A stretch of DNA of 36,747 nucleotides from Saccharothrix sp. NRRL B-16348. Its GTDB lineage: Bacteria; Actinomycetota; Actinomycetes; Mycobacteriales; Pseudonocardiaceae. The stretch spans positions 1 through 36,747 of the forward strand of contig NZ_LGED01000254.1 in the NCBI RefSeq assembly GCF_001280085.1, given 5' to 3'. Shown here piece after piece: positions 14,429 through 33,189 of the stretch. The number at the start of each line of letters is the position of its first letter. Position 1 is the stretch's first letter. The notes under the pieces are model-generated. The model saw nothing but the letters and a program-made list of their open reading frames with translations. It was not told where the DNA came from and did no database searches. A program made the position numbers and the translations under genes.

Positions 14429-14490
14429 CGTCAGCCGCCGGGTGTCACGCCGCACGCCGTTCGCGATGCCGACAACGCCCCTGAACGACG

Positions 14491-14523
14491 ACGTGGCCCG
14501 CCGGCTGAGCCGACGGGCCACGT
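14491..14523. terminator. Bidirectional hairpin terminator
   Basis: ACGTGGCCCG (14491-14500) pairs perfectly with CGGGCCACGT (14514-14523), with a 13-nt loop, between the convergent ends of the genes at 14428 and 14536. Confidence 0.7.
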
Positions 14524-14535
14524 GGAGAACCGCGA

Positions 14536-16887: not shown

Positions 16888-17147
16888 CCCCCCTCAGGAC
16901 ACGACGACGGAGCGTTCACCCCCGCCTGTCGCCGGGATAATCCCAGGTGACGCCCATACCTGTCCGAGAATTTCCCAGTCCCGCCACCGACCGCGTAGCG
17001 ATAGGCCTCTGACCAATCCGGCCTCCGACCCGCGATGAACGCCGCTCAGTCGTCCTCCGTGTCGGTCGCCGGGCTCGACGAGGAGGTGGCAAGGGCCGCA
17101 GGACGGCGGAATCGAGTCCGTTCAACGAACGCACGACCCCAACCGTG

Positions 17148-18482
17148 TCAGAGCTCACCTCCGCGGACCCCGGCCGGGATGACGTGCCCCAACTTGAGCA
17201 GGGCCTTGCGGAACTTCAGCTCCTGGTCCGGCCGGACGGCGAGGTGGCGGTCACCGATCGGGCGGCACAGCGCGCGGGTCGCGCGGTCGCGGCTGATCAA
17301 CGCGGCGAGCGCTGGATCGGCGCACTCGATGACGCGGACGTGGCCGAGATCTGTCAGCTGCGAACTCCGCCGCTCGACGTCCGCGACCAGCGTGCGCAAC
17401 GCGTCGGGCAGGTCGTGCTCGGTCCGTTCGGCGAGGAAGTCGACGAACTCACCGAGGTCGCGGCCGTTGCCGAGCGCCGTGAGCAGGCCGTCCGCCGACA
17501 CCATCCAGACGCGGTCGGCGGTCTGCTCCGCGTGGGCGGACAGGACGAGCCGGTCCGCGACGCCGATGTCGCCCATGGCGACGACGTCGAGGTTGGGCAG
17601 CACCTTCAGCGGCCGCGTCCCGGCGGCCTTGGACTCAGGCGGTCGGTACGCGTCGGTCAGGCCGAGGGCGTAAGCGCCGAGCGCGGTGAGCCTGATCGCC
17701 ACGAGTCCGTCGTAGCGGCTCAACGCGTCCAGGTCGTCACCACCCCAGTTGTCGACGTAGTCGTCGCGCGCACCGCGTGGGTCGACGTAGTCGAGGTCGA
17801 TCAACCCAAGAGTGCCCGCGTACTCGAACAACACGGCCAGGGTGTAGCGACCTTCGAGGATTTCCCAGTCGTGGTGCTCCTCGTAGCCGAGGCTGCCGTA
17901 TTCAGGGTCGACGAGATACAGCTTCCACAGCGCCATTTCGGTGCGGGCGATGGTGGGACTCATGTTGCCGCGCCGCATGGCGGTGAACAGGAAGTCCACG
18001 TCGACCCACTTGCCCGGCGGGCACGTGGCCAGCGCCGCGGCGACCACCTGTCGCCGGGTCTTGGCCGCGGTGAGCACGTTGCGCCCTTGCTGGCCCTTGA
18101 TCTGCTCCACCCGACTGAACTCGTCGATCACCGCGTGGGTGAGCCAACGCCGCCACAGGTCCCGAATGGCGTCGGCAGTCGGCTTCCCGAGCACCGCACG
18201 TCCCTTCGTGGTCAACCGGAGGCGGGTGCCGTCGAGCGAGGCGAGGCCACCGGCCTGGAGCAACAGCGGCCAAGCGAACGCCGCGATGGGCTCTTCTGGA
18301 TAGAAGTCACCGTGCACCAGGTGTGCGCTGACGGTGCGCACGGTCGCAGCAGACGGACGCCGGGTCTTGTCACTGCACTTCACCTCCCCGGCCGCACACA
18401 GTTCGAGCACAGCGCGCAGGTTGGCCAGGGCTTCCTCCTCGGTGAACCGCACCTGTTCCGGCCAAGGGTCCACCGGGTTCAC
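17148..18482 (-). CDS. Helicase XPB/Ssl2 N-terminal-domain-like protein
   Basis: 444 residues from GTG 18482, overlapping the preceding stop by GTGA and preceded by AAGGGGG. The C-terminal half (about 300-440: VLPNLDVVAMGDIGVADRLV, VWMVSADGLLTALGNG, LPDALRTLVADVERRSSQL) matches the XPB/Ssl2 N-terminal / 'helicase C3' domain found in actinobacterial helicase-associated proteins. The N-terminal half contains winged-helix-like segments (LRLTTKGRAVL). There are no Walker or helicase motifs, so it is not a helicase itself. The coupled upstream gene is CcbP-like. Role unknown; DNA binding is the likeliest property. Confidence 0.75.
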   Translation of the reverse strand: MNPVDPWPEQVRFTEEEALANLRAVLELCAAGEVKCSDKTRRPSAATVRTVSAHLVHGDFYPEEPIAAFAWPLLLQAGGLASLDGTRLRLTTKGRAVLGKPTADAIRDLWRRWLTHAVIDEFSRVEQIKGQQGRNVLTAAKTRRQVVAAALATCPPGKWVDVDFLFTAMRRGNMSPTIARTEMALWKLYLVDPEYGSLGYEEHHDWEILEGRYTLAVLFEYAGTLGLIDLDYVDPRGARDDYVDNWGGDDLDALSRYDGLVAIRLTALGAYALGLTDAYRPPESKAAGTRPLKVLPNLDVVAMGDIGVADRLVLSAHAEQTADRVWMVSADGLLTALGNGRDLGEFVDFLAERTEHDLPDALRTLVADVERRSSQLTDLGHVRVIECADPALAALISRDRATRALCRPIGDRHLAVRPDQELKFRKALLKLGHVIPAGVRGGEL

Positions 18483-18796
18483 GCCCCCTTCGCCCAGCGG
18501 CGGTAGGCGTCCACCCACTGCATGCCTTCCAACAGCGGGGCAGGCAGCGGCAGGTCCAGGACGGGGATGCGCTGCTTCGACTTCCCGCGCACGCAGACAG
18601 CCACGATCTGCTCGTCATCGGTCAGGTCCACACTCGTCACAATCACGTCCATGCCCAGCACCACCGTCTGGAACGGCACGACGAGGTACTCCTCGATCAT
18701 GGAGTGGAAGCCTGTGACACACTCGCTGTCGTCATAGCAGTCGACAGTTGCTTCCGCGATCAGCGCATCCAGCGCCACCCGGTTCGATCGGCTCAC
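18479..18796 (-). CDS. CcbP-like putative calcium-binding protein
   Basis: 105 residues from GTG 18796 (VSRSNRVALDALIAEATVDC). An in-frame ATG at 18814 adds six residues, but the family normally starts at the SRSNR block. The conserved pattern VDCYDDSECVTGFHSMIEE, PFQTVVLGMDV, LDLPLPAPLLEGMQWVDAYR fits the CcbP (Calci_bind) family, small acidic proteins named for a cyanobacterial Ca2+-binding member. The stop overlaps the next start (GTGA), so the two are translated together. No strong ribosome site is visible for either start. Confidence 0.78.
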   Translation of the reverse strand: MSRSNRVALDALIAEATVDCYDDSECVTGFHSMIEEYLVVPFQTVVLGMDVIVTSVDLTDDEQIVAVCVRGKSKQRIPVLDLPLPAPLLEGMQWVDAYRRWAKGA

Positions 18797-19226
18797 GCCG
18801 CGAGGTTCCCACATTCGGCAACGGGACTCTTACGAGGAGCGGCAACCGCAAGTTTCTCTCCCGAACCACCCGGTAGGGTCACCCGGCTTGGAGCACAACA
18901 CCGACAACCTGCTCCAGACTTGCTCCACCCACCGCAGTGTGAGCGACGGCAACAAGTGCCGACCTCAACCCCCGAACACGGTCCCACGCGCGGTGTGGAA
19001 CTCGACCCGCACCCGCAGCACCGTCGCCAACCGCTCACCCGGCTCGTCGTCGCCCGTTCATCGGGGCTGCCGAGGCATGGGACTCGATGGACACCACGCG
19101 GCGGCCGACTGGTTATCGAAGCCTGTCTGGGGCCTGTCACCGGTCGGGCAGAGGCCGCTGGCAATTTCACCGCTTCAACCACTCTTGCACTTGCCCGACC
19201 GGTGGAGTACGACCTCGACATGCTGG
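18797..19226. other. Gene-free 430-base segment containing the left flanking repeat
   Basis: No open frame here has coding character. The right half (19081-19226) shows nothing recognisable. The left-centre carries a sequence related to 28440-28900 (see the repeat entries), so this gap probably marks the left boundary of the 7-deazaguanine island. Confidence 0.6.
18876..19060 (+). repeat. Left copy of an imperfect direct repeat flanking the 7-deazaguanine island
   Basis: TGGAGCACAACnnnGACAAC (18889-18908), CCTGCTCCAG (18908-18917) and CGCAGTGTGA (18933-18942) recur in the same order and orientation at 28454-28473, 28743-28752 and 28767-28776. Weaker similarity continues past 'CGAACA..CG.TCCCACG..CGGTGTGG'. 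In this copy the first two blocks are adjacent. In the right copy about 270 nt separate them. Confidence 0.65.
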
Positions 19227-19751
19227 TCACTCTTCGCTGTGGACCAAGGTCTTCCTACGGCCGAGCAACGCCAGGACCGCCACAGCGGCAACGGTCATCC
19301 ACGCCTTGCCGATGATCTGCCCGGGCAGGAACTCGAAGGAACCGAAGGCCATCTTGAGGAAGATCAAGCTGTCCGCCAGCAGGCCGACGATGTTTGAGCC
19401 GACCACGGCGACGATGAGTCCACGCTTCCGCAGCGGTTCGTACACCGCGAAGTCCAGGAGTTCCGCCACGATGAACGCGGCGGCCGACGCGGTGGCAAGC
19501 GCCGGGTCGGCCAGGAGGTAGGACAGGACAGTGCCCACGACGATGGCGCCCAGGACCGCTCGGCGGCCAACGCTCTCACGTGCCAGATCCCGCAGGACCA
19601 GAGCCAAACCGGCGAAGTAGACGGCTGCTGGGGCGAGGAAGCCGAACCCGACCGGGACAACGCCGAAGTGGGTCACGACGAGGTTCGCCAAGGGGATGGT
19701 GGCGATGTATGCGACGAGCAGAATCACCCCGCTCGGAGTGACCTTCTTCAC
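19227..19751 (-). CDS. VUT/YhhQ-family queuosine-precursor transporter
   Basis: 174 residues, GTG 19751 with AAGGA upstream. About five or six hydrophobic segments are visible (GVILLVAYIATIPLANLVV, FLAPAAVYFAGLALVL, AVLGAIVVGTVLSYLLA, a final VAAVAVLALLG). The family signature is present as LLDFAVYEPL and SNIVGLLADSLIFL. YhhQ/VUT proteins import preQ0/preQ1-type 7-deazaguanines. It is the last gene of the que operon, 91 nt after folE2. Since the neighbours make preQ0 de novo, it may salvage precursor or balance the pool. Substrate is inferred from family and context. Confidence 0.85.
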   Translation of the reverse strand: MKKVTPSGVILLVAYIATIPLANLVVTHFGVVPVGFGFLAPAAVYFAGLALVLRDLARESVGRRAVLGAIVVGTVLSYLLADPALATASAAAFIVAELLDFAVYEPLRKRGLIVAVVGSNIVGLLADSLIFLKMAFGSFEFLPGQIIGKAWMTVAAVAVLALLGRRKTLVHSEE

Positions 19752-19842
19752 GGAATCCTTCTTTCGGAGGGGGCTGACCGACTGGCTTCAGGGAGCGGCT
19801 TCGCGCTCGGATCGGCCGTGCGGAGTGCTTGAGGGTATGCCG

Positions 19843-20610
19843 TCACCCCGTGATCAGAGCCACCGCATCGTGGCTGTGGATGCTCTCGAGGTTTCGCACC
19901 CTCACCTGGTGGGGCAGCCCTCGGGAGCGGCACGTGAGCGAGATGTCACGCACCATGTCCTCGACGAACACGGGGTGGTCGTAGGCCTGCATCGTGAGCG
20001 TGCGTTCATCAACGCGCTTGACCAGCGGAACCACCGGCGCCGACCCGCTGTCGCGGATGATCTTGACCGCGTCCAGCACCGGCAGGGGATACAGGTCATC
20101 TCCACTGCCCGTGACCGACAAGGTGACCTTGCTGCGCTGGTTGTGGGCGCCGTAGTCGGAGATGCTCTTCGAGCACGGGCAAAGACTTGTCACCTCGGAC
20201 GTCACCGCCGTGGTCACGCGGCAGGTGCCGTCCTGCCAGGTGCCGGTCACCTCCACGTCGTGGACGGACACGGACTCCAAGCCGCTCGTCGGCGCGGATG
20301 TCACTTCGGAGATCGGCATGCTGAGTACTACCGAAATACCCGGGGCGTCCAGTTCAGCCGCACCGCTTTTCAGCACCTGCGCCATGTCTCGGGGGTCGAA
20401 CGCTTGCAAGCGTTCGTGCACGAGAGCGACCATCCGACTCATGTGCGTGCCCCGGCGGTCTGCCTGCAGTTGGACGGTGACCGAAACCTCGGCGATGCTC
20501 CGCTGGTTCGTGACGCCGTCATCGAACACCACCGGGTACCGCAACCCGGCGATGCCGACCTGATCGACCTCGATGCCCCGAGGGTCCACTTCTGCCTGGA
20601 TGTCGTGCAC
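19843..20610 (-). CDS. folE2: GTP cyclohydrolase IB (FolE2 type)
   Basis: 255 residues from GTG 20610, one nt after the QueD stop, with GAGG upstream. Recognised by GTHMSRM (54-60), SLCPCSKSIS (142-151, catalytic Cys region) and GAHNQRS. It converts GTP to 7,8-dihydroneopterin triphosphate, the first step to preQ0. FolE2 is the form that is not zinc-dependent; clusters of this kind often carry the zinc-dependent FolE instead. Fourth gene of the operon queC-queE-queD-folE2-transporter. Confidence 0.92.
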   Translation of the reverse strand: MHDIQAEVDPRGIEVDQVGIAGLRYPVVFDDGVTNQRSIAEVSVTVQLQADRRGTHMSRMVALVHERLQAFDPRDMAQVLKSGAAELDAPGISVVLSMPISEVTSAPTSGLESVSVHDVEVTGTWQDGTCRVTTAVTSEVTSLCPCSKSISDYGAHNQRSKVTLSVTGSGDDLYPLPVLDAVKIIRDSGSAPVVPLVKRVDERTLTMQAYDHPVFVEDMVRDISLTCRSRGLPHQVRVRNLESIHSHDAVALITG

Positions 20611-20611
20611 G

Positions 20612-20968
20612 TCACCGTCCTCGATAAGTGCACCCGGAAGTGCAGGTCTCCCGGACCGTTACAGCGGACACCTCGGGCAACCGCGGCACCAGGCGGTCCC
20701 AGATCCACACGGCCAGGTTTTCGCTGGTGGGATTCTCCAACCCCTCGACCTCGTTGAGGTAGTGGTGATCGAGTTGCTCCTCGATGGGCTTGAAGGCTGC
20801 CTTCACGTCGCCGAAGTCCATGATCCAGCCGGCACGCTGGTCGACGGGTCCCTCCACGTGCACGGTCACGCGGTAGGAGTGGCCGTGGAGGCGGGCGCAC
20901 TTGTGCCCCTCCGGCACCTCGGGAAGCCGGTGAGCGGCCTCGAAGGTGAACTCTCGAAAGATCTCCAT
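20612..20968 (-). CDS. queD: 6-carboxy-5,6,7,8-tetrahydropterin synthase
   Basis: 118 residues. ATG 20968 overlaps the QueE stop by one base (TGATG). Zn ligands H13 (AAHRLP), H28 and H30 (LHGHSY), catalytic Cys24 in [10 protein letters not shown], and the C-terminal [13 protein letters not shown] are in place; the length is normal. It turns dihydroneopterin triphosphate into 6-carboxytetrahydropterin, step two of preQ0 synthesis. Confidence 0.94.
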
Positions 20969-21603
20969 CAGCGGATTCCCAGGTACTTGTGCGTCTGCAG
21001 GGACAGCGACCAGCGCGGGTTCTTCATGCAGTACTCCACCGCCGCCTCGGTGTGGCTCTCCCGCTCTTGGTCGTCGAGGGGTTGGAGCCGGAACGAGCGG
21101 AAGTCCAGGTGTTCGAACTGCGCGGGATCGCCGCCAGCCTGCGGATAGACCAACTTCAACTCGTCACCCGAGGTCACCACGAGATCGGCCCCGATCTTCG
21201 GGCTGACGCAGAGCCAGTCCACTCCCGCAGGCGGTGTGCGGGTGCCGTTCGTCTCCACGGCGACCTCGAAACCCCGGCGGTGCAGGGCATCGACAGCCGC
21301 TGCGTCCAACTGCAGCAGTGGTTCTCCGCCCGTGCACACCACGAAGCGATGGTCCCTGGTCTGCGATGGCCATGCCGCTTCGACCGCGTCAGCGAGCTCG
21401 TCGGGCGTGGCGAACCGTCCGCCTCCCGTGCCGTCGGTGCCGACGAAATCCGTGTCGCAGAACTTGCAGATCGCCCGGTAGCGATCTTTCTCGAGACCGG
21501 TCCAGAGGTTGCACCGGGAGAAGCGGCAGAAGACGGCCGGCCGGCCGGCGTGGCTGCCTTCGCCCTGAAGGGTGTAGAAGATTTCCTTGATGAGGTAGGT
21601 CAT
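20968..21603 (-). CDS. queE: 7-carboxy-7-deazaguanine synthase (radical SAM)
   Basis: 211 residues from ATG 21603, overlapping the QueC stop by ATGA. It begins [20 protein letters not shown]. The [4Fe-4S] ligands follow the variant QueE spacing C31-X14-C46-X2-C49 rather than CX3CX2[12 protein letters not shown] is the GGE motif that positions SAM. It contracts 6-carboxytetrahydropterin to 7-carboxy-7-deazaguanine. A longer upstream frame (to 21675) is only overlap with queC. Confidence 0.94.
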
Positions 21604-22301
21604 GCGTCCACGTTTCGGTACGTCACGGGATCGGTGACACCGGCCTCTGAGAAACCCTTGAGCCGCAGCAGGCAAGTGTCACAGCGACCACATGCCCGTG
21701 CCTGCTCGTCGGGGTCGTAACAGCTCGAGGTGATCGAGTAGTCGACCCCCAGGCGGAGGCCCTCGCGGATGATGTCCGCCTTGGACATCTCGATGAGCGG
21801 TGAGCGGAGGCGAAGCGGGGTCTCCCCTTCGACACCGGCCCGAGTGGCGAGGTTGGCCATCTTCTCGTACGCCGCCATGTACTCCGGCCGGCAGTCGGGG
21901 TAACCGCTGTAGTCGACAGCGGTCACGCCGGTGAAGATGTCCGTCGCGCCGACCACCTCGGCGTAGGCGAGCGCGAAAGACAGGAAGATGGTGTTGCGTG
22001 CCGGTACGTAGGTCACCGGGATGCTGCTCGCGTCGACCTCTTCGAGGTGGTCGTGCTTGGGCACCGAGATGTCCGACGTGAGCGCTGAACCGCCGAAGGC
22101 TCGAAGGTCGATGTCGACGGTCTTGTGCCCGGCCGCCCCGAGCGCCTGAGCAACTCGCCGAGCCGCCTCCAACTCGACGACGTGGCGCTGCCCGTACCGG
22201 AAGCTGAGGGCGTACGGGGTGAAACCCTGGTCCTTCGCTATGGCCAGTACCGTCGTCGAGTCGAGACCGCCGCTGAGCAGTACGATCGCCGGTCGTTCCA
22301 T
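21600..22301 (-). CDS. queC: 7-cyano-7-deazaguanine (preQ0) synthase
   Basis: 233 residues from ATG 22301 with AAGGGG eight nt upstream. PP-loop [10 protein letters not shown] (SGGLDS at 10-15) and the Zn site C194, C204, C207, C210 (ACGRCDTC) are intact. It converts 7-carboxy-7-deazaguanine to preQ0 with ATP and ammonia. First gene of the leftward operon, divergent from the DNA-modification operon across 111 nt, so precursor synthesis and use are likely co-regulated. Confidence 0.95.
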
Positions 22302-22412
22302 CGACGTCACCCCTTCAATTGGTGGACAGCGGGTCAAGATCATATCCCGCTAACTAGGATGTAGAGTAAACCGCATCGGAAGCGAGTTAGGGTTCAAGGG
22401 AGCCGGCGAGGC
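22302..22412. promoter_or_regulatory. Divergent promoter region between que and DNA-modification operons
   Basis: This is the only intergenic space between the two operons and is visibly AT-richer (22335-22375) than the genes on either side. A short inverted repeat AGCGGG (22328-22333) / CCCGCT (22346-22351) lies in it. I cannot assign -10/-35 boxes with confidence and see no preQ1-riboswitch-like pseudoknot sequence. Confidence 0.5.
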
Positions 22413-23303
22413 GTGAAGAAACTATCCGTGGTAGTGACCTGCACGGACCGTAAGATGCTCGTCCCGCCTCCGGCTCTCCGTGTGGGTTCCCTCCCGACGG
22501 GCACGGTGAGCAGCCGACTCGAGACGTGGACGGACCGGGTCCGCGCGGAGAGGGACCGCACCCCTCTGAGCGGCCTGTACAAGGGTGAGCACTGGCTCCA
22601 AGCGCACGCCGTGGTCGATGCGGCAACCCGTGCGGGGTTCGAGGCGGAGCTGTGGGTCGTGTCCGCAGGGCTGGGCTTGCAGCCCGCCACCGCCTCGTTC
22701 CCGGCGTATGCCGCAACCTTCAGCGCCGGCCATGAAGACAGCGTCGCATCGGCCGGCGTCGACCGGAGGCTGTGGTGGAAGGGCCTCCAGGAGCGCATCG
22801 GCACGTCGACCCTTGCCGATCTGGGCTCCCGCAGTTCCGTGCTCCTGGTGCTGTCCGAAGTCTACGGGAGCGTACTGACGGCCGAGTTGGGCGAACTCGG
22901 TCAGCTGGGCGGTGACACACTTCTCGTCGGCGGCAGCGAGGACATACCCGGGGTGCAGCGCGTACGAGCCAACGGATCGCTTCGCAAAGCGCTGGGCGGT
23001 ACCCTCACCGGGCTGAACGCGCGGATGGCCGGTTCCTGGCTGACCCACTGCGAGGACGGTGTGCTGACCTCACCTGCCACGACGGAGTCGTGGACGCGCT
23101 GGGTCGAGCACTCGGCGCACCGCGAGACCTACAACCGCACACCGATGACGGACGCGGAGGTCAAAGACTTCATCCGGGCGTCGGCGGCCAAGCACGACGG
23201 CATCTCGCGCACGAGGTTGCACCGGTTGCTCAGGGAGAGCGGCAAGGCTTGCGAGCAGAAGAGGTTCGCCAACCTCTACTCCGAGACGATGGGAGAGCGG
23301 TGA
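22413..23303 (+). CDS. YaaA/DUF6884-like protein, candidate preQ0-modifying (DpdC-role) enzyme
   Basis: 296 residues from GTG 22413. It opens with a Rossmann-like strand KLSVVVTCTDRKM and continues WLQAHAVVDAATRAGFEAEL, then WVVSAGLGLQPATA. This layout resembles YaaA/DUF6884 proteins, whose first strand ends in C-T/S-x-x-K and whose second signature is '(V/L)SAxxGL'. C-terminal residues 225-296 are helical and Lys/Arg-rich (ADVKDFIRASAAKHDGISRT). It is first in the operon and its stop overlaps the next start (GTGA). In characterised dpd clusters a third protein besides DpdA and DpdB converts the inserted preQ0 to the amide; this gene sits where that function is expected. That role is inference. 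Confidence 0.6.
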   Translation: MKKLSVVVTCTDRKMLVPPPALRVGSLPTGTVSSRLETWTDRVRAERDRTPLSGLYKGEHWLQAHAVVDAATRAGFEAELWVVSAGLGLQPATASFPAYAATFSAGHEDSVASAGVDRRLWWKGLQERIGTSTLADLGSRSSVLLVLSEVYGSVLTAELGELGQLGGDTLLVGGSEDIPGVQRVRANGSLRKALGGTLTGLNARMAGSWLTHCEDGVLTSPATTESWTRWVEHSAHRETYNRTPMTDAEVKDFIRASAAKHDGISRTRLHRLLRESGKACEQKRFANLYSETMGER

Positions 23304-24424
23304 ACCTCAAGCGCAGGGCGTTGAAGGTGCACCAGCACCCTACGATCCCCCTGTACATCTTCACCCTCGCGGCCGAGGAAGTCGCGCTGATCTCCGACGT
23401 GGCGCGGATCTCTCGGGATGACGCTGGTCGACTCCTCGGTTATCAGCGCCCTGAGAAGAAGCAGCACGTCAACCAGATCCTTGAGTACCTGGACAGCGAC
23501 GAGGTGCTGTTCCCCAACGGGTTGATCATGGCTCTGCCCGACTCGGTTCGCTTTCGATCCAGTCCAGGTCCTTCAGCCACCGACGGCCTGGCCACGAGCG
23601 GCACACTCGAAATCCCGCTCCCGCAGACCCCGGACGAACCCCGACCGGCGTGGATCGTGGACGGCCAGCAGCGGAGCCTGGCCCTCGCGCGGACCAAGCG
23701 GACCCGCCTACCGGTGACGGTCGCCGGGTTCGTCGCCGAGGACATCGCCACCCAACGCGACCAGTTCCTGCGGGTGAACACGGTGTCGCCGCTGCCCGCC
23801 AACCTCGTGTCGGAACTTCTGCCCGAGGTGGGCACGGCCCTGCCCGCGAAGCTGTCTGCCCGCAAGTTGCCGTCCGCCCTGGTCACGATGCTCAACCAGG
23901 ATTCGGACTCGCCCTTCCGGGGGTTGATCAAGCGACCGTCGACCAGCCCGGAACAGCGCGGTACCGCCGTCGTCACCGACAACAGCCTCACCGCTGCGGT
24001 CGAGGAGTCCCTCAACTCGTCCGCGGGCATCTTGTTCCTCTACCGCAACCTGTCGAACAGCACCATAGACACGGGTGCGATACGCAAGATCCTGGTCTCC
24101 TACTGGACCGCCGTGCAGCACACCTTCCCCGATGCCTGGGGTCTGCCGCCGACCAAGAGCAGACTGATGCACGGTGTCGGGATCAGAGCCATGGGGCGAC
24201 TCATGGACAAGATCGTCCCGAACGTAGACCTGGGCGCCGCAGATGTCGTCGAGCAGATGAAGAAGGAACTGACCTTGATCGCGGATCACTGTCACTGGAC
24301 CAAGGGGCGGTGGAGTGAGCTGAACATCGCTTGGAACGAACTCCAGAACACCCCGCGGCACATCAGCGTCCTGTCCAACTTCATCATCCGTGTCTACGTC
24401 AAGTCGCGGGTGAACGCGTCGTGA
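23300..24424 (+). CDS. DGQHR-domain protein 1 (DpdB/DndB-like)
   Basis: 374 residues, GTG 23300 overlapping the previous stop (GTGA). Contains GYQRPEKKQHV (47-57) and the signature WIVDGQQRSLAL (DGQQR at 121-125), the fold shared by DndB/DpdB and, distantly, ParB. Also FLRVNTVSPLP and, near the C-terminus, LMHGVGIRAMGRLMD and W..LQNTPRHISVL. DGQHR proteins bind or regulate DNA in phosphorothioation and 7-deazaguanine systems, where DpdB is needed with DpdA for base exchange. It is clearly paralogous to the product at 25688 but diverged. Likely role: DNA handling or ATP-linked partner of the transglycosylase. Confidence 0.85.
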   Translation: MNLKRRALKVHQHPTIPLYIFTLAAEEVALISDVARISRDDAGRLLGYQRPEKKQHVNQILEYLDSDEVLFPNGLIMALPDSVRFRSSPGPSATDGLATSGTLEIPLPQTPDEPRPAWIVDGQQRSLALARTKRTRLPVTVAGFVAEDIATQRDQFLRVNTVSPLPANLVSELLPEVGTALPAKLSARKLPSALVTMLNQDSDSPFRGLIKRPSTSPEQRGTAVVTDNSLTAAVEESLNSSAGILFLYRNLSNSTIDTGAIRKILVSYWTAVQHTFPDAWGLPPTKSRLMHGVGIRAMGRLMDKIVPNVDLGAADVVEQMKKELTLIADHCHWTKGRWSELNIAWNELQNTPRHISVLSNFIIRVYVKSRVNAS

Positions 24425-25695
24425 AGTTCTACTTCCCGGACAGTCAGGACCTCGTCAGCCCGACGTACGACTTCATCAACGACGAGTACCTGCCTACCAG
24501 GGTCCGCCAGCGCGACGACGTGTACGCGCACGAGGCGGTCACACCGTCCCCCTACGACGGCATCCTCGTCAGCAAGGCGATCGTCGACGGCTCGATGAAG
24601 GGGGCAGGCAAGTACCCCGCACCCCAGCGCGCGAGGCTCTACCGCCTAGGAGTGCGCAAGTTCTTCAGGCTGCCGCCTGACACTGCCAGTCTCGGCGACT
24701 GCGGCGCCTTCAACTACGCCGAGGAGGAGTACCCGCCCTACTCGGTCGATGAGGTCCTCGACTTCTATGACGAGTGCGGGTTCGACTCGGGCGTCAGCAT
24801 CGACCACGTCATCTTCGGCTACCTACCGGAAGCAGGCGAAGACGCGGTAGACCCCGCCTGGGCGAAACGGCGGCACATATCCCTGGACCTCGCGGAGAAG
24901 TTCCTCGCCGCCGTCCAGAGCAGGGGCAGCCTTGTCGAACCTGTCGGTGCCGCGCAGGGGTGGAGCCCTGCCAGTTACACGGACAGCGTGGCCCGCCTCC
25001 AAGAGATGGGGTACCGCAGGATCGCGCTCGGCGGCATGGTGCCGCTGAAGACCCACGAGATTCTGGCGTGCTTGGAGGAGATCTCAACCGTCCTGCAGGC
25101 GGAGACGCAGCTGCACCTTCTCGGGATCACCCGTGTGGAGAGCATGGAGCGCTTCGCCGGACTCGGTGTGACCAGTTTCGACAGCACGTCGGCTTTTCGG
25201 CAGTCGTTCATGGACGACCGGAACAACTACCACACTGAGGACGGCGCCTACACGGCCGTACGCGTCCCCCAGGTTGACGGCAACCCAGCGCTGAAGCGAG
25301 CGATCCTCTCAGGAGCGGTGTCGCAACGTGATGCCATCCTTGCGGAACGGGAGTGCCTGAGCGCCTTGCGCGGATACGACCAGGGCGTTGTAGACCTCGA
25401 GCACGTCATGACCGCCCTGGCTGCTTACGAAGCGCTGGTGCTGGGCGACAACCAGACGAAGAAGAAGAGCTACCTGGTCCAGTACCGTAGAACGCTGGAG
25501 GCTCGTCCCTGGAAGTACTGCCCATGTGCGTTGTGCGAAAAGCACGGCGTCGAGATAGTGATCTTCCGAGGCACGGAGCGGAACAAGCGGCGTGGGTTCC
25601 ACAACCTCGCCGTCCTGGAAGCCAAGATGCGCAAGGTCGCCCCGCGACCGGTTCGCGGTGAGACCGCCCCCTCAACTAGGAGAGAAAGTGGCTGA
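24421..25695 (+). CDS. dpdA: DpdA-like DNA-guanine transglycosylase
   Basis: 424 residues, GTG 24421 overlapping the previous stop (GTGA). TGT-superfamily barrel: YDGILVSKAIVDGS, LGDCGAFNY (91-99, guanine pocket like SGGFQ), GVSIDHVIFGYLP (D128), MVPLKTHEI and LGITRVESMERFAGLGVTSF followed by D254 at the nucleophile position of tRNA TGTs. The Zn site CPCALC (C367, C369, C372) with H394 (RGFHNL) is intact. Full-length and free of a tRNA-binding PUA domain, it fits DpdA, which swaps guanine in DNA for preQ0. Adjacent preQ0 synthesis and DGQHR genes support DNA, not tRNA, as substrate. Specificity is inferred. Confidence 0.88.
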   Translation: MKFYFPDSQDLVSPTYDFINDEYLPTRVRQRDDVYAHEAVTPSPYDGILVSKAIVDGSMKGAGKYPAPQRARLYRLGVRKFFRLPPDTASLGDCGAFNYAEEEYPPYSVDEVLDFYDECGFDSGVSIDHVIFGYLPEAGEDAVDPAWAKRRHISLDLAEKFLAAVQSRGSLVEPVGAAQGWSPASYTDSVARLQEMGYRRIALGGMVPLKTHEILACLEEISTVLQAETQLHLLGITRVESMERFAGLGVTSFDSTSAFRQSFMDDRNNYHTEDGAYTAVRVPQVDGNPALKRAILSGAVSQRDAILAERECLSALRGYDQGVVDLEHVMTALAAYEALVLGDNQTKKKSYLVQYRRTLEARPWKYCPCALCEKHGVEIVIFRGTERNKRRGFHNLAVLEAKMRKVAPRPVRGETAPSTRRESG

Positions 25696-26794
25696 CAGGT
25701 ACACCCTGCGACTCCCGGCCCTCGAGGTCCGGCAGGGGCGTCGACGGATCTACTGCTTCGCCGTCGACGGCAAGAAGTTGCACAGCTTCGCAGCGGTGTC
25801 GCGCATCCGCCGTGATGATGACGAGCAACTGCAGGGCTATCAGCGTCCGGAGGTGCTCAGCCACATCCGCGGTATCCGCAAGTACCTCGAGTCGGGCGGG
25901 GCGATGCTGCCCAACGCGATCGTCGTCGCCTTCGACGAGCGCGTGCAGTTCACACCCTCCTTGATGATCCCCTCGGACACAGTCGACTACTCGGTTCCGG
26001 GGGAACTCGTCATCCCGGTGGACGAGAGCCTGTCCGAGGCCGAGAAGCCCGCGTGGCTGGTCGACGGTCAGCAGCGCAGCGCCGCGATCCGTGATGCCGA
26101 CGTCGCCGAGTTCCCCGTCGCGGTCGTGGGCTTCATCACCGACTCGGAAGAGGAGCAGCGCTCGCAGTTCATCCTGGTCAACTCCACGAGGGCGTTGCCC
26201 AAGGGCCTCATCCACGAGTTGCTTCCCGACACCACCGGTCACCTGCCTGATGCCTACGTGCGCCGTCGCCTGCCGGCGCAACTGATGACGCGCTTGAACG
26301 GCAAGCGCGAGAGCCCGTTCTTCCGCATTATTGCGTCACCGACTGCGCCCGACGGCTACATCAAGGACAACAGCGTCCTGAAGATGGTCGAGCACAGCCT
26401 TTTCGAGGGAGCGCTTTACCAGTACCGCAACCCCGTCGACGGCACTGGCGACGTGGATCGGATGCTCACCCATCTGATTGGCTTCTGGTCAGTGGTGCGC
26501 GACGTTTTTCCCGAGGAGTGGAGCAAGCCGCCGCGCAGTTCACGTTTGACGCACGGCGTCGGCATCCAATCGCTGGGCTTCGTCATGGACACGTTGACAG
26601 AGGACGTACCGGCCGAAGGCGTGAAAACAGTAGAACTCAGGGAAACTTTGGAGAGCCTGCGTCCGCACATGGCGTGGACATCCGGAAGTTGGAAGTTCAG
26701 CGATGGCGAGCGGCGCTGGAACAACTTGCAAAACACGCCGAACGACGTCCGCCAGTTGACGACGTACCTATTGAAGTTGCTGCGTCGTCGGTAG
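25688..26794 (+). CDS. DGQHR-domain protein 2 (DpdB/DndB-like)
   Basis: 368 residues, GTG 25688 with TAGGAGAG upstream, overlapping the DpdA-like stop by 8 nt. Same plan as the protein at 23300: QGYQRPEVLSHI (49-60), PAWLVDGQQRSAAI (DGQQR 126-130), FILVNSTRALP, RLTHGVGIQSLGFVMD and WNNLQNTPNDVRQL. The two paralogues are diverged but align throughout, so they probably arose by duplication and may form a hetero-oligomer, or one may act as regulator as DndB does. Last gene of the operon; no hairpin terminator is evident in 26795-26986. Confidence 0.85.
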   Translation: MADRYTLRLPALEVRQGRRRIYCFAVDGKKLHSFAAVSRIRRDDDEQLQGYQRPEVLSHIRGIRKYLESGGAMLPNAIVVAFDERVQFTPSLMIPSDTVDYSVPGELVIPVDESLSEAEKPAWLVDGQQRSAAIRDADVAEFPVAVVGFITDSEEEQRSQFILVNSTRALPKGLIHELLPDTTGHLPDAYVRRRLPAQLMTRLNGKRESPFFRIIASPTAPDGYIKDNSVLKMVEHSLFEGALYQYRNPVDGTGDVDRMLTHLIGFWSVVRDVFPEEWSKPPRSSRLTHGVGIQSLGFVMDTLTEDVPAEGVKTVELRETLESLRPHMAWTSGSWKFSDGERRWNNLQNTPNDVRQLTTYLLKLLRRR

Positions 26795-26986
26795 TGAGCC
26801 CGTCTATTCTCATCCGGCGTCGAGGCGGAGTGCAAGGACGACTTAGGTCAGGTCGGTGATGCGAGTGGTAGAGCAATGGAGTCTGCGCAGGCATTGAGAG
26901 GGAGATGGCTCGTTCGCCAAGCGCCCGGATGTGTGCGTAAAAGCGGTTGGCCGCCTGCTGGCCAGGCGAAAGGTTATGCCACCTGC

Positions 26987-27335
26987 TTAGGTAGGGATGC
27001 GGACAGAGTCGCTACCGCGTCGGTATGCCTTGCCCGCTGGCGGGTGTGCGAGGACTTGAACACTCATGCCGTGGCGCTTGAATTTTCCGGAGTAGTACGG
27101 ACCGTCGGCGGCGATCCGGTCGATGGACAGCACGGTGCCATCGAGGATCACGTAGGACTTGCCTACGTCGCCTCGACGAGATCGGCAAGGAGTCAGGTGG
27201 CTTCGTGGATGTAGCGGCAGACGGTGGCCAAGCCGGATGCCGAACCCGGCGGCAAGGCGGATGTACGTGTTGCCGCAGCGCAGATGCGCCAGCACCAACC
27301 CTTGGCGTCCGGGATCGAGGTGCCTCCACTTGCTG
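26987..27335 (-). pseudogene. IS5-family transposase remnant
   Basis: Fragments in at least two frames: KWRHLDPGRQGLVLAHLRCG and NTYIRLAAGFGI (HTH), CRYIHEA, then SYVILDGTVLSIDRIAADGP and YYSGKFKRHGMSVQVLA. These match in order the N-terminal half of an IS5-group transposase, the same subfamily as the remnant at 32839-33180. The DDE catalytic half is missing. The element abuts and apparently truncates the ATPase fragment to its right. Confidence 0.75.
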
Positions 27336-27578
27336 CCAGCACTTGCGACCGACCCGCTCGCCCGCCATGCGCGTCCAGTCCCACGCCTCGGCGAATGCCT
27401 CGACCAGGGTCGACTTCCCCGAACCGTTCTCCCCGACCAGGAAGGTGATTGGCCGCTCGAAGACCATGCCTTCATCGGTCATCTGCGCCAGGCACGGCAC
27501 GGTGAGCGGCCGCGGTCGTGAATCCGGAAGGCCGGAGGGCAGTAGGTCGTCGGGAATGTACGCGCGGCGGGCAAGCAT
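27336..27578 (-). pseudogene. AAA ATPase, N-terminal fragment
   Basis: Starts at ATG 27578, 12 nt after the radical-SAM remnant's stop. Reads MLARRAYIPDDLLPSGLPDS and then FERPITFLVGENGSGKSTLV (Walker A GENGSGKS), the N-terminus of an SMC/ABC-like 'predicted ATPase'. The good match changes frame around 27390 (LDAHGGRAGRSQ in the next frame) and is then cut by the IS fragment. Probably the third gene of a former peptide-modification operon. Confidence 0.7.
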
Positions 27579-27590
27579 GGGCTGTCTTGA

Positions 27591-27945
27591 TCAGTACTCG
27601 GTCGGGACGCATTTCCCCTTGGGCGTGCAGTTGCCCGCAGGGTTGCACGCCGGGCCACAACTCGGCCCGCACTGCGGGTCGCACATGTTCGGCACACACG
27701 GCGACACCGGTCGTTGCGCGAACCGCTCGGCCAACGCAGTCGTCGTCGCCAGCATGGTTGGTCCGTTCAGGATCTCGACAAGCGGAGCAAGCCGCACGTT
27801 ACCCACCGGCAGCCAACGCGAAAACACGCACGGCCACACCGAGCCGTCCTCGGCAACCGCGACCTTCCTATCACCGCGCTGCCCGCACAGTGCAGACGAG
27901 TCGGAGGCCACGGCACGGTCACCGAGGATGTCGGCAGCAGTGCGG
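27591..27945 (-). pseudogene. Radical-SAM maturase, C-terminal SPASM-like fragment
   Basis: About 115 residues: ADILGDRAVASDSSALCGQR, GDRKVAVAEDGSVWPCVFSR, WLPVGNVRLAPLVEILNG and a Cys-rich tail (CVPNMCDPQCGPSCGPACNP, ending CVPTEY). This is the auxiliary Fe-S (SPASM) end of a radical-SAM peptide-modifying enzyme. The SAM-binding CX3CX2C half is absent. At about 27945 the frame joins directly to methyltransferase sequence, so an internal deletion fused two genes. Confidence 0.7.
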
Positions 27946-28125
27946 CGTTGTAGCCGGCACCGATCTCGAGGACGCGGTGGCCGGGTCGGTCGTCAAACGG
28001 AGATGCGACTGGCGGGCCTGCCGCCGGGTTCGCCAGCCTTGATGGTGAGGACCTGTTGGCGTAGTCGTCGGGCACGAACAGGTGACGGGGTACCGTGCGC
28101 GCCCAGTGTCGGTGGTGGCAATCAT
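27946..28125 (-). pseudogene. PIMT-type methyltransferase, N-terminal fragment
   Basis: Recognisable as 'VPRHLFVPDDYANRSSPSRL' and 'RPGHRVLEIGAGYNAALL', the SAM-binding motif I of isoaspartyl-methyltransferase-like enzymes found beside actinobacterial lanthipeptide or radical-SAM loci. Motif I lacks the usual 'GTGTG' spacing (GAGYN, a deletion), and the gene stops at the junction with the radical-SAM fragment. Confidence 0.65.
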
Positions 28126-28212
28126 CCGGCTCCTTTCCACACCTACTGCCTCAGCGGCGACAACCGCGCCGACAAGCCTGTCACCGTGGACGGTGACATC
28201 GCCCTCGACGAT

Positions 28213-28252
28213 GTCATGACAGAGATTCCGGCGTCATGACAGACATGCCGGC
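28213..28252. repeat. Tandem 20-bp duplication
   Basis: GTCATGACAGAGATTCCGGC (28213-28232) is followed immediately by a second unit with 18 of 20 identical bases (28233-28252). Each unit starts with the 8-bp palindrome GTCATGAC. Confidence 0.8.
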
Positions 28253-28439
28253 CAACCCACAACCGCACCCGACCGTGGTGTACACGAGGAACTGGCCAAC
28301 GATCGGACCGGCGTAACGACAACGCGGCTCCATACGCCCGCTGACGGCCGTCTGGAACCGTTCGAGGGTCGGTAACACCGGAGCCGGGCATCGGCAACCG
28401 CTACGGCCGTTGAAAAGTCACCGGCAGCACCATCCGGCC

Positions 28440-28578: not shown

Positions 28579-28597
28579 CATGTGCTGTATTCGATTG

Positions 28598-28644
28598 TGG
28601 AGCTGAGGGGACTCGAACCCCTGACCCTCACACCGCCAGCATGG
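28598..28644 (-). tRNA. tRNA-Ala(GGC) 3' half, probable attachment-site remnant
   Basis: On the minus strand there is a perfect 5-bp T-stem with loop (AGGGG-TTCGAGT-CCCCT, 28606-28622), a 7-nt acceptor strand CAGCTCC plus discriminator A (28598-28605), and upstream an anticodon loop CTGGCGG with GGC at 34-36 (28633-28639) on a weak stem. Nothing beyond 28644 can form the D-arm or the 5' acceptor strand, so only the 3' half is present. Tyrosine-integrase elements commonly carry such tRNA 3' halves as att sites. No CCA is encoded. Confidence 0.6.
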
Positions 28645-28742: not shown

Positions 28743-28900
28743 CCTGCTCCAGATCTGCTCCACATCCGCAGTGTGAATGACGACAGAGGCCGGACTCGAG
28801 CATCGAACATGCGTTCCCACGTACGGTGTGGCACTTGGTCCGCAATCGCAGTGCAGACGCCAACCGCCCGGTCAATCGTGCGCCCCGATCGCGCCATGTC
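28743..28900 (+). repeat. Right flanking repeat, part 2
   Basis: CCTGCTCCAG (28743-28752) and CGCAGTGTGA (28767-28776), followed by CGAACA..CG.TCCCACG..CGGTGTGG and GACGCCAACCG, align in order with 18908-19035. Overall identity looks roughly two-thirds by eye, so the copies are old or derive from related elements. Confidence 0.6.
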
Positions 28901-28959
28901 GCAGCAGGAGACTCGTCCGGAAACCCAGAGCCGTCGGATCGGCCGGGCGCAGATGGCCT

Positions 28960-30450
28960 AGAACTCCTATCCCACGTGTCGCCGCTGTCGCCGCGGCACC
29001 GGCCCTGCCGGCGAAACAAAAGGAAGCCCGCACGCTCGTCGCACGCCTCCAGCACGGCGACCGCCGTCGGGGCGTTGAACTCAGGGGCGCGCACTGGCGA
29101 CCAGGCGGAATGGGCGACCGCCCGGGCGAGGCGGTCTCGCGCCTCACGTGCCTCGTCGAGTGGATCACCAGAACCACAGTTGTGCACGAGGACCGGCACT
29201 GTCCCCGCGCGTGCGTAGTACGTGTGGCTGCTCTCGATGGAGAGGTCGTAGACAGGCTCAACGTGGGTGTAGCGATCGAGTCAGTGACCTGTGGCGAGGT
29301 GCTGCCGATCGACGTAAGTTGTTGACCGGGTTTGAGGTCGCCGATGTTGACGAAGCGGCCTTCGGCAGCAATCCAGACGGGGTGCCAGTAGGTGGCGTCG
29401 ATGGTGCCGTCTCCAGCGGTGATGGTGAGGCGGGTCATGTCGTCTTCGTCGGCGTGAACGATGGTGGCGACGACGTCGCGGTCGGTGGTCTCGCCGGTGG
29501 TGGGATCGGTGGCTTTGACTTTGTCGCCGATCTCGACTTCGGCGATGGGTTTGGTGGAGCCGTCGGCCATCAGGACCAGGGTCGTGGCGGAAGCTGTGCT
29601 TCACACAGCTCCGCCGCCCTTCAATGTCAGCTTCTGGAACTGTTCGGTGGCGGCGCGGGAGACGTTGTCGGCGATGGATTGGACACGGCGCAGGACGCCC
29701 TTAGCCTTGTCCACGATGCCCGCCAGGCGACTGACCGCCTTCACCGCATTGAAGCCGGTTTCGAGCATCTTGCCGACCTTGCCCCACCGCACGAGGCCGG
29801 CGACGAGGCGACCACAAGCCCAGATGTCACCCTTGGAGAAGCAGTCGACGATGTCGTGCCAGCCCGAGATGTCCTTGAGGACCTCCCAGGCGACTTCCTT
29901 GATCACTTGTGGACGTCGGCCAGCGCCTTCTGGTAGTCCTCCCAGGAGATGCCCTCCAAGGCCAGGCTGTTCCTCAACGCCCTTTCGTTGTTCCGGTTCG
30001 CCTGCTGCCACGCCCGCTCACGATCGTAAAAGGCCTGCCGTTCCCGCTCGTAGCTCTCGCGGTTCTGGTGAACAGCGGGTTGTAGCCGCACAGCACGCCG
30101 TCGGAGCCGCAGTCCCTGAGCAGACCGGTCTGGTCGCTGAACGTCACCGGGCTGTTGTTGGCGTAGGCGTGCCATTGAGCTGCTGCGGGTCGTAGTTGTC
30201 GATGACCGGGTCGGCGGAGAGGGACCGACTCGAGGACTGGTCGTACAGGCGTGCGCCGACCTGGGTCAGGCCCGACTCGTCGTTGTGGCCGCCGACGAAG
30301 CCCAGGCGGTCGGGCCATTCCGGTGGGGCGGTGCCGCGGGTCGCGCCGAAGGATGTTTGACGGCGTTGGGTGACGGTTTGCGCGTGTCGTTGGCAACGGA
30401 GAGTTGGTTGGTGCGGTGGTGGTCGGAGGTGAGCCACTTCAGGCCGGAGA
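28960..30450 (-). pseudogene. RHS polymorphic toxin, C-terminal relic with HINT domain
   Basis: Read leftward through several frames: LKWLTSDHHRTNQLSVANDT, QRRQTSFGATRGT, LGFVGGHNDESGLTQVGARL and YANNSPVTFSDQTGL (RHS core end), a linker (WEVLKDISGWHDIVDCFSKG), then a HINT pretoxin domain (LVLMADGSTKPIAEVEIGDK, ATYWHPVWIAAEGRFVNI, VYDLSIESSHTYYARAG, VPVLVHNC). After VHNC begins a toxin domain (DEAREARDRLARAVAHSAWS) that fades near 28960. Frame changes occur near 30365, 30172, 30070, 29905, 29595 and 29283, so it cannot make a functional product. No immunity gene is recognisable beside it. Confidence 0.8.
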
Positions 30451-30454
30451 TGCT

Positions 30455-30605
30455 GAGCACGACCCGGCCGCGCAGCGCGTCGGGCAGAGGCGGGGTGTGC
30501 GGGCAGGTGACCTGTCCGAGCAGCGGCGCGATGCGTCGAGGACACGGGAGACACGGTGGGTTGGGAGACGCCGAACCAGTCCGAACGCTCTAGGCTTCGG
30601 AACTG
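30455..30605 (-). pseudogene. Transposase N-terminal HTH fragment fused to the RHS relic
   Basis: SDWFGVSQPTVS, then after a frame change RIAPLLGQVTCPHTPPLPDA and LRGRVV. This resembles the helix-turn-helix start of an IS5-group transposase. It runs directly into RHS sequence (ISGLKWLTSDHH), marking an old recombination junction. Confidence 0.5.
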
Positions 30606-30654
30606 CGGGACCGGAGTAACTAGGCTATAGCAGCCTTAGACAAGGAGGTACCCT

Positions 30655-30717
30655 ATGACGATAGAACAGGTTAAGACTCATGAAATAGGCCATCGACCAG
30701 CGGAAGGAAATTCATGA
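30655..30717 (+). CDS. 20-codon leader ORF coupled to the HAD gene
   Basis: ATG 30655 has a consensus AAGGAGGT ribosome site (30642-30649) and encodes MTIEQVKTHEIGHRPAEGNS, ending in TGA 30715-30717. That stop overlaps the HAD start (ATGA). Perfect initiation signal plus perfect stop/start overlap make real translation likely. It may serve only to couple or attenuate translation, or be a functional micropeptide. No amino-acid run suggests classic attenuation. Confidence 0.6.
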   Translation: MTIEQVKTHEIGHRPAEGNS

Positions 30718-31427
30718 GGTCACATTCGGCGGTCCTTCTAGACTGCGACGGACTTCTTGTCGATAATGTCGAGTTCGAGAAAGCCGTCACGCTATTCCTA
30801 GTCGAACACCTGGCTTCGTCCTCGCAAATTTCCGTAAACGAGGCAACGATCGCATGGGAGCAGGAGCTTCTCGATACTAAAGGATCTCCATCTTGGTACG
30901 ACTATGACTTTCACTGCCAAAGGCTCGGCCTGCCAAAACTTGCTAGAGAAGCACACAGGGCAGCCCGCCATCTCCTCGTTCGCATGCCCGAAGCAGAGAA
31001 AACTTACGCCATGCTTCTCGAAACCGGCATAAAATTGGGCGTTGCTACCGACGCCGTTCGTTGGGTCGTTGAATTCAAGCTCGAATCCCTGGACTTCCCT
31101 AAGCCAAACTTTATTCTTTCATCCGACTCGATGTCGGCAACCAAAAGTTCACCTCGCTACTGGCAAACGTACAGGGAACAATACCCGACGGATGACGTAT
31201 GCATATTTGCAGACAATCGCGTCGTAAACCTGGACACTGCAGGATCCGTACTACCAGACGCCGACCTTATCTGCTTCGTTGGCGATGAACACGTTCTACA
31301 ACTCTCAGGAATCGTCGGACCAAACGAAGTGCAGAATAGAATCTCGGAAACACCCATCGATATCGTTGCTGATCACTACGAGCTAATGGAGCAGATAATC
31401 GACTTCCTGGTGCAGGGTAAACAATAA
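30714..31427 (+). CDS. HAD-superfamily hydrolase
   Basis: 237 residues from ATG 30714 with GGAAGGA upstream. HAD motifs: I DCDG (nucleophile D10, acid D12), II VATDA (T112), III K144 (SATKSSPRYW), IV FADNRVVNLDTA (D167/D174), with an alpha-helical type-C1 cap (about 15-85). It resembles phosphoglycolate-phosphatase-like or beta-phosphoglucomutase-like enzymes, but the substrate is not predictable. Codon use and GC are clearly lower than in the flanking high-GC DNA, indicating recent transfer. Flanked by an RHS relic and IS fragments; the 20-codon ORF upstream is its only operon partner. Confidence 0.85.
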   Translation: MRSHSAVLLDCDGLLVDNVEFEKAVTLFLVEHLASSSQISVNEATIAWEQELLDTKGSPSWYDYDFHCQRLGLPKLAREAHRAARHLLVRMPEAEKTYAMLLETGIKLGVATDAVRWVVEFKLESLDFPKPNFILSSDSMSATKSSPRYWQTYREQYPTDDVCIFADNRVVNLDTAGSVLPDADLICFVGDEHVLQLSGIVGPNEVQNRISETPIDIVADHYELMEQIIDFLVQGKQ

Positions 31428-31766
31428 CATTGAAGGCGACAGTAACGATCTGCTTCAGTTTACTTACCCGTCACCGACGGTCGGAGGTGCGCACAAGTTA
31501 TTGAGACGAAAGTGCGAGGCTGCCTTCCTAATGACGGCAAACCCGCTGGTCAGCGGCTTGGGATGCAAGAAAGCTGACACTTTCCACGCAATAACCCTGT
31601 GGAGCGCGAGTTGCTGCAATTGCAGGTGGTGACCGTGGTAGAGATGGGAAGGGTGAGGGCTACAGGAAGGCTGCGGAGGTGGTCGGAAACTTCCGAACGT
31701 TGAGCCATTTTCATCGTGACGTCGCAGGTCATGACGCAGGCTGAGTGGTGGGTGCGGGGAAGGGCA

Positions 31767-31834
31767 AGGCTCCCGGTAAGACAGCAGTCGACCAAGATCC
31801 GATGCCCTAACCGGGAGCCTCGCTGTGCTGTCTT
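31767..31834. repeat. Compound inverted repeat
   Basis: AGGCTCCCGGT (31767-31777) is inverted at 31810-31820, and AAGACAGCA (31778-31786) is inverted at 31826-31834. The two pairs interlock, which suggests alternative pairing or paired IS ends rather than a simple terminator. Confidence 0.6.
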
Positions 31835-31885
31835 AGTGGCCGTTTCCGAGCTTGGGCTGGTGGATGGCCTTTGGTGCGGACACAA

Positions 31886-32825: not shown

Positions 32826-32838
32826 CTCGGAAACGGCT

Positions 32839-33180: not shown

Positions 33181-33189
33181 GAGTAAACC

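Follow-up and report, generated by a model that had tools for sequence, protein, structure and literature searches.

Known Dpd systems and the Saccharothrix locus

Dpd systems place 7-deazapurines in DNA, and the islands of Salmonella Montevideo, Kineococcus radiotolerans and an Enterobacter plasmid (locus L099) combine a writer, dpdA-C, with a restriction arm, dpdD-K. Excerpts of PMC12839542 describe DpdA as a homologue of tRNA-guanine transglycosylase (TGT), DpdB as its ATPase partner and DpdC as a DUF328 protein hydrolysing 2'-deoxy-preQ0 (dPreQ0) to 2'-deoxy-amido-deazaguanosine (dADG), while in excerpts of PMC5567051 the Salmonella cluster is cited as restricting unmodified plasmid more than 1,000-fold. 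In the portion of PMC11888242 consulted, 2,335 unique dpd windows are reported, 333 of them from Actinomycetota, with islands lacking a restriction operon, extra dpdB copies, and preQ0 and YhhQ genes nearby. Unsettled in these systems are the discrimination of self from non-self and the identity of the site-choosing subunit. This study concerns a related locus in the 10.9-Mb draft genome (278 contigs) of Saccharothrix sp. NRRL B-16348, comprising nine genes at positions 19227-26794 of a 36,747-bp stretch of DNA, which is the whole of contig C253 and is called the window below.

The locus is very probably the writer half of a Dpd restriction-modification system, its restriction half lying elsewhere in the genome, with arms being exchanged behind such writers or kept apart from them. 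As homology suggests, FolE2, QueD, QueE and QueC would make preQ0, which the VUT protein may also import; DpdA, aided by two DpdB paralogues, would swap guanine in DNA for preQ0; DpdC, judging from the literature, would hydrolyse the preQ0 in DNA to the amide, ADG; and an unlinked operon on contig C236, dpdE-F-G-H-(I)-J-K-D, presumably attacks unmarked DNA. By content this is an ordinary writer cassette, and both its gene content and islands without an arm are already in print. By arrangement it is revealing: Dpd writers and arms emerge from it as parts that can be separated and, judging from sequence, exchanged.

Like the Dpd islands with neighbouring preQ0 and YhhQ genes in the excerpts of PMC11888242, the locus joins writer and precursor supply, and curated models identify a DpdA/B/C writer and a dpdE-F-G-H-J-K-D arm in its genome too; unlike the Dpd island, it has its arm on another contig. 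The Enterobacter island has a single DpdB of the downstream type, whereas two DpdBs surround dpdA in the window, and DpdJ of the B-16348 arm is 33% identical to that of Enterobacter. Cassettes on alphaproteobacterial plasmids (Sinorhizobium L100, Agrobacterium vitis L151) share the order dpdC-dpdB-dpdA-dpdB and carry queE, queD, queC and a VUT gene, but have all genes on one strand and no adjoining folE2; no dpdD-K gene is annotated within the stretch compared, which covers the locus only, unlinked arms not having been searched for. In Dnd/Ssp phosphorothioation (with DndFGH or other modules) writer and restriction are often decoupled too, according to excerpts of PMC10853773, and DpdB belongs to the Pfam DndB family; however, chemistry and genes differ, and the partners reported there are other nucleases, whereas those of Dpd are homologous, diverged arms. 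BRIGADE systems combine 7-deazaguanine genes with YprA helicases, DpdJ being the YprA-family helicase of Dpd, but in the consulted part of PMC12458937 they are reported just from halophilic archaea and usually have two YprA helicases. The literature examined, which consists partly of excerpts and lacks some central Dpd papers, yielded no account of arm exchange, of arms unlinked from their writer or of a division of DpdB into two families.

Identity of the writer

The central enzyme, DpdA (24421-25695, plus strand), scores 618 bits with the NCBIfam DpdA equivalog (cut-off 200) versus at most 21 bits with tRNA TGT models, all below their cut-offs, and the Pfam TGT family was not reached (20.9 bits, cut-off 26.3). 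The sole solved relative found was PDB 7ui4, a 'DNA-guanine transglycosylase' (E 1.6e-124). Six residues, Asp93, Asp254, Cys367, Cys369, Cys372 and His394, are invariant in 28 aligned DpdA sequences including that of the window, and we take them, by analogy with TGT, to be the catalytic and zinc residues. No tRNA TGT was found in the B-16348 genome by a Pfam TGT search (E 0.001; positive controls 14/14), so the preQ0 pathway is probably not devoted to queuosine. The family scores place the transglycosylase with DpdA, as the earlier note on this sequence had inferred, and not with the tRNA TGTs; together with the genome lacking a TGT match, they speak against a tRNA TGT or queuosine assignment. 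No close DpdA turned up in phages, the single match among 50,697 phage records being 39.7% identical.

The first plus-strand gene (22413-23303) had been read as 'YaaA-like' and dpdC as missing. DUF328 is the YaaA family, so the likeness was fairly described. The top PADLOC model for this gene is nevertheless DpdC (E 2.3e-112, residues 2-295), although no Pfam or NCBIfam family matched the protein at E 0.05, and the writer set is therefore complete, with a predicted dPreQ0-to-dADG hydrolase (role according to the excerpts of PMC12839542). The two remaining writer genes, dpdB1 (23300-24424) and dpdB2 (25688-26794), both on the plus strand, encode DGQHR proteins that exceed the NCBIfam DpdB cut-off of 300 with 407 and 523 bits. 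These scores bear out the earlier assignment to a predicted 7-deazaguanine DNA modification system with two DpdB-like proteins. Genes for preQ0 supply (FolE2, QueD, QueE and QueC, by Pfam/NCBIfam matches) adjoin the writer.

The restriction arm on a separate contig

The window contains no dpdD-K gene (tblastn, Enterobacter queries, E 1e-5), and with Enterobacter queries tblastn revealed no arm remnants in the window downstream of dpdB2. The genome carries an arm on contig C236 (total length 42,318 bp; 40,000 bp read), with dpdE at 7212-10418, dpdF at 10379-12856, dpdG at 12857-13867, dpdH at 13831-16842, a gene without a family match where dpdI would be expected at 16839-17591, dpdJ from about 17588 to 22027, dpdK at 22024-22560 and dpdD at 22557-24767. 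All the named genes pass their NCBIfam cut-offs, dpdH by 1.6 bits only. All frames are open; a single HxK(x)4D motif occurs in DpdK, and a DEAH box in each of DpdE and DpdF. The NCBIfam models of DpdH, DpdJ and DpdG match all eight genomes compared (B-16348 and seven related entries, among which G249 and G301 have identical coordinates and are probably one assembly) and exceed the cut-offs in three, eight and four of them, respectively, B-16348 being included each time. A search of the same genome found no second writer beside the C236 arm, there being one DpdA and two DpdBs in all. The earlier note had seen no restriction arm and had suggested either a modification-only system or an unlinked or unknown nuclease; the absence holds for the window but not for the genome, and the arm is unlinked as surmised, although it is the known dpdD-K set.

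A contaminant contig, possibly from a same-genus source, could in principle account for the arm, as the assembly is fragmented into 278 contigs and has a contamination estimate of 3.62%. We consider this very improbable, since one same-genus genome matches a flank of C236 at 91% identity along its entire 3,710 bp, the GC content of the contig (0.70 in the flanks, 0.66 in the arm) resembles that of the window backbone, and an arm is present in every other DpdA genome of the family. For comparison, a flank of the window is 87-89% identical in 7 of 25 genus genomes searched.

Co-occurrence was assessed in 200 Pseudonocardiaceae genomes, B-16348 included, with at most three DpdH candidates scored per genome. 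DpdA exceeded its cut-off in nine, and the same nine have a DpdH match of at least 352 bits, whereas the other 191 gave three matches in all, each of at most 26 bits. These genomes come from four genera and should not be counted as nine separate events. Writer and arm are unlinked in six of them: the halves occupy different contigs in B-16348, G249, G408, G436 and G467, and in the Crossiella genome G355, a single contig of 9.17 Mb, dpdA (1,157,551) and dpdH (4,393,058) are 3.2 Mb apart. The arm is linked in G359, G427 (whose dpd coordinates are those of the L020 genome, Saccharothrix sp. ALI-22-I, a member of the same genus) and G456. The last of these (L188-L190) has one DpdA with its linked arm plus a second, unlinked arm of another type on a different contig, which comprises at least dpdF, H, J and K and comes without a second DpdA.

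These data bear on the proposal that the system is modification-only, the mark made by the cassette serving in regulation or as a shield against other nucleases, with the C236 arm not its partner. The proposal draws on the lack of dpdD-K genes in the window, on the arm-less islands described in the excerpts of PMC11888242 and on 6 of 80 related loci with no arm gene within the flanks read. The whole-genome searches that found the C236 arm led to its rejection, and we hold it to be unlikely: the genome has an arm and no other writer, and DpdA and DpdH occur together in all nine family genomes and are both absent from 191, with up to three candidates scored in each. Such a reading is not judgeable from a single island, as the arm can be megabases off.

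Probable exchange of arms behind a stable writer

One case involves three near-identical writers. Window DNA is similar to that of S. luteola (92%) and of ALI-22-I (87%) from just beyond the end of vut to 26784, 10 bp short of the dpdB2 stop, and in both relatives an arm follows downstream of dpdB2. Between B-16348 and S. luteola, the writer proteins are 92% (DpdC), 99% (DpdB1), 92% (DpdA) and 98% (DpdB2) identical, whereas the arms share 31% (DpdE), 35% (DpdF), 27% (DpdG), 25% (DpdH), 35% (DpdJ) and 32% (DpdK) in their best pieces, covering 76-100% of the length; DpdI gave no match and DpdD a single piece of 13%. Among the three, DpdA is 91-92% identical, while DpdJ identity is 33-35% within the trio and 30-33% with the Enterobacter protein. 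The B-16348 DpdJ is nearest to that of A. pegani (66%, with DpdA there at 74%) versus 35% and 34% to those of its writer sisters; DpdJ of S. luteola is closest to Nocardiopsis (55%) and that of ALI-22-I to Crossiella (59%). These DpdJ comparisons, and those from which the locus pairs below were selected, used stop-to-stop frames.

Phylogenies agree with these identities. The DpdA tree unites the three writers (Shimodaira-Hasegawa-like approximate likelihood-ratio test, SH-aLRT, 99), and the DpdJ tree puts them in three separate places; forcing the three DpdJ proteins into one clade costs 2,509 log-likelihood units (approximately unbiased test, p-AU 1.6e-13). An Actinomadura pair (L084/L086) has 98% identical DpdA and 33% identical DpdJ, with a DpdJ tree conflict at p-AU 6e-61. 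Both trees are quick ones that used no mixture model, and L099 and G456 were flagged as long branches in that of DpdA. Alternatively, no exchange took place and arms simply diverge very fast under phage selection while writers stay constant, their dissimilarity being due to descent. Arm genes are indeed generally less conserved than DpdA. However, the nearest kin of each DpdJ lie outside the writer sisters, a single DpdJ clade is rejected in both cases above, and a 16-locus Streptomyces cluster of similar writers has arms in both orientations, which makes divergence by descent a decidedly improbable explanation.

Arm exchange is also apparent at the level of DNA. In 15 pairs with similar DpdA and dissimilar arms, continuous similarity stops between -37 and +149 bp from the dpdB2 stop, as judged from same-strand pieces above 150 bp in near register. 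The pairs were hand-picked and share members, 11 being chosen on DpdJ or DpdF and four on DpdK alone. Five of six control pairs continue for at least 8.8 kb, and the sixth (L032/L033) resumes after a 1.8-kb gap. Grouping DpdA at 85% identity or more gave 13 writer clusters, eight of which hold at least two arm types at 45% identity (five of the 13 with DpdK left out of the typing). Arm typing by reference was dropped as a measure, as top scores lay within 1.3-fold of each other at 11 of 74 typed loci; pairwise identities and clusters were used instead.

Several observations weigh against this interpretation. The relatives compared are 80 actinobacterial DpdA loci, the best among 212 found, each read with flanks of up to 10 kb; 74 of them have dpdD-K genes, so linkage of the arm is the rule. 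In B-16348, DpdH clears its cut-off by that small margin and the DpdI position has no family match, and C236 and C253 are separate draft contigs, although the separation would be about 17 kb or more even if they were neighbours. Short similarity patches (67-79%) recur further into the arm in 8 of the 15 pairs, and some of the pairs, given these patches and the four picked on DpdK alone, appear to be exchanges between related arms. The remaining writer clusters hold no differing arms. Finally, both the DNA mark and the restriction are predicted from sequence.

On balance, arm exchange behind a stable writer is the simplest reading of the comparisons, which delimit the writer in this lineage as a discrete cassette ending at dpdB2, with arms apparently exchanged behind it or kept apart. 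A discrete writer with exchanged or distant arms implies that arms probably read the mark itself and not a partner-specific feature of the writer. We give about even odds to the wider proposition that Dpd arms are interchangeable readers of one mark, with a near-constant two-DpdB writer and diverged arms that are swapped, placed megabases away or doubled (as in G456), self-recognition requiring no matched evolution of writer and arm. Near-identical writers paired with three very different arms amount to a swap experiment already set up by nature: protection by one writer against all three arms would locate recognition in the mark, as opposed to matched proteins.

Gene order and the two DpdB families

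The gene set, which the earlier note considered unusual, is not, since the order dpdC-dpdB-dpdA-dpdB occurs at 75 of the 80 actinobacterial loci and at all six alphaproteobacterial plasmid loci fetched (L100, L149, L151, L152, L155 and L157). By this count, which ignored matches below 500 bp, the exceptions are L021 and L098 without full DpdBs, L070, on a short contig, without dpdC, and L090 and L093 with an extra DGQHR gene. The Enterobacter plasmid has the order C-A-B, and three cyanobacterial loci and one of Paenibacillus yielded DpdA alone with these queries. In those four (L150, L153, L154 and L156), DpdA is far longer, at about 2.1 kb with an N-terminal extension; although no DpdB was found by these queries, a gene annotated as DGQHR or DndB lies near two of them.

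The flanks without dpdD-K genes are those of L021, L022, L023, L037, L076 and L098, of which L037 and L076 reach just about 3 kb beyond dpdA. At L021, L022, L023 and L076, that is, at all four arm-less loci whose genomes were searched, the arm is elsewhere in the genome. The L021 cassette (Actinokineospora inagensis, genome G298) looks broken, with no dpdB1 and a truncated dpdB2, and other contigs of the genome carry additional DpdB copies, some full and some partial. At L022 (Crossiella sp. SN42, 12959-21272), a CRISPR-like array, seen by eye as repeated GTSPRAWGG in translation, and Cas-like frames directly follow the dpd cassette.

The two DpdBs are, on phylogenetic evidence, ancient paralogues flanking dpdA. 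In the DpdB tree, with identical sequences reduced to one copy, one branch (support 0.91) separates all 81 distinct upstream sequences from all 85 downstream ones; the additional DGQHR proteins of L090 and L093, both encoded on the reverse strand, group with the upstream copies but are outside these counts. Mean identities, taken over every third sequence, are about 61% and 60% within the families and 36% between them. The single DpdB of Enterobacter, which follows dpdA and was counted as downstream, groups in the downstream family and is 46% identical to dpdB2 versus 35% to dpdB1. The split is common to Actinomycetota and alphaproteobacterial plasmids, so the pair is older than the spread of the cassette between them. 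The similar lengths (374 and 368 aa) and the DGQQR motif kept in both proteins might point to a recent, redundant duplication; the two clades spanning both groups of organisms and the low identity between them make this extremely improbable. DGQQR is present in all compared DpdB sequences, and the two families have 49 positions in common at which conservation is at least 95% in each. Both DpdBs look functional as far as their sequences tell, and we infer that they work as a pair. Conservation of the pair hints that DpdA has a two-part partner, which a single-DpdB model would overlook. With the Dnd-associated model DGQHR_dnd_1, the two window proteins reach 51 and 44 bits, and its cut-off of 450 was not reached.

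Operon structure

Direct reading and family matches confirm two divergent operons with nine genes filling 19227-26794 and 111 nt (22302-22412) between the preQ0 and dpd operons. The minus strand carries queC (22301-21600; preQ0, or 7-cyano-7-deazaguanine, synthase; NCBIfam QueC 204 bits, cut-off 150), queE (21603-20968; 7-carboxy-7-deazaguanine synthase; queE_Cx14CxxC 345 bits, cut-off 240), queD (20968-20612; 6-carboxytetrahydropterin synthase; queuosine_QueD 116 bits, cut-off 89), folE2 (20610-19843; GTP cyclohydrolase FolE2; Pfam GCHY-1 E 2.8e-64) and vut (19751-19227; VUT/YhhQ-type transporter, a possible preQ0 importer; Pfam Vut_1 42.7 bits, cut-off 27.2). The plus strand carries dpdC, dpdB1, dpdA and dpdB2, the last being the right edge of the conserved cassette. 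QueC, QueE (as Radical_SAM), QueD, FolE2 and VUT pass Pfam cut-offs; with NCBIfam, QueC, QueE and QueD pass, and FolE2 (204 versus 215 bits) and VUT (41 versus 51) fall slightly under. Chance is excluded for the family matches at these operons, on sequence scores. The earlier statement that all junctions are stop/start overlaps holds for five of them with the starts used here (4 bp at queC/queE, dpdC/dpdB1 and dpdB1/dpdA, 8 bp at dpdA/dpdB2 and 1 bp at queE/queD), but not for queD-folE2 (1-nt gap) and folE2-vut (91-nt gap). A weak Rfam match to COG2908 RNA within dpdB2 (26529-26564; 23.4 bits, gathering 58.7) is probably due to chance.

Genomic context

The cassette occupies a variable slot (18850-28428): the match between the window and the same-genus genome G472 breaks off after 18849 and resumes at 28429, and G472 has about 8.9 kb of other genes in this interval. 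Two same-genus genomes in which no DpdA was found, G410 and G472, have most of the backbone at 96-12559 in common with the window, as well as a stretch whose end is at 28639; G472 additionally matches 17090-18849. The slot is bounded on the right by the 3' part (about 43 nt, 28597-28639, minus strand) of a tRNA-Ala(GGC) gene, which aligns with complete copies of this gene in G472 and G410. In three relatives, Crossiella G355 and Actinokineospora L023 and L076, a tRNA-Arg(CCG) gene is located downstream of the cassette. GC content is 0.70 on the left side, 0.65 in the cassette and 0.62 after it. The tRNA edge, the GC shift and the exchanged content fit a mobile slot beside tRNA genes.

A tmRNA was rejected as integration site (Rfam 27.3 bits, gathering 47), the match being better read as the tRNA-Ala remnant. 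The sole repeat flanking the cassette, a direct repeat of 129 bp and 74% identity (18908-19034, 28743-28867), is not convincing as an attachment site; a related stretch lies inverted to the left of the cassette in S. luteola, at a distance of about 1 kb. On the minus strand at 27012-27911 are short AAA ATPase and SPASM fragments, probably gene remnants, and downstream of the slot, at 28872-33939, are a pretoxin-HINT fragment, an IS4/5-type transposase and a winged-helix transposase piece.

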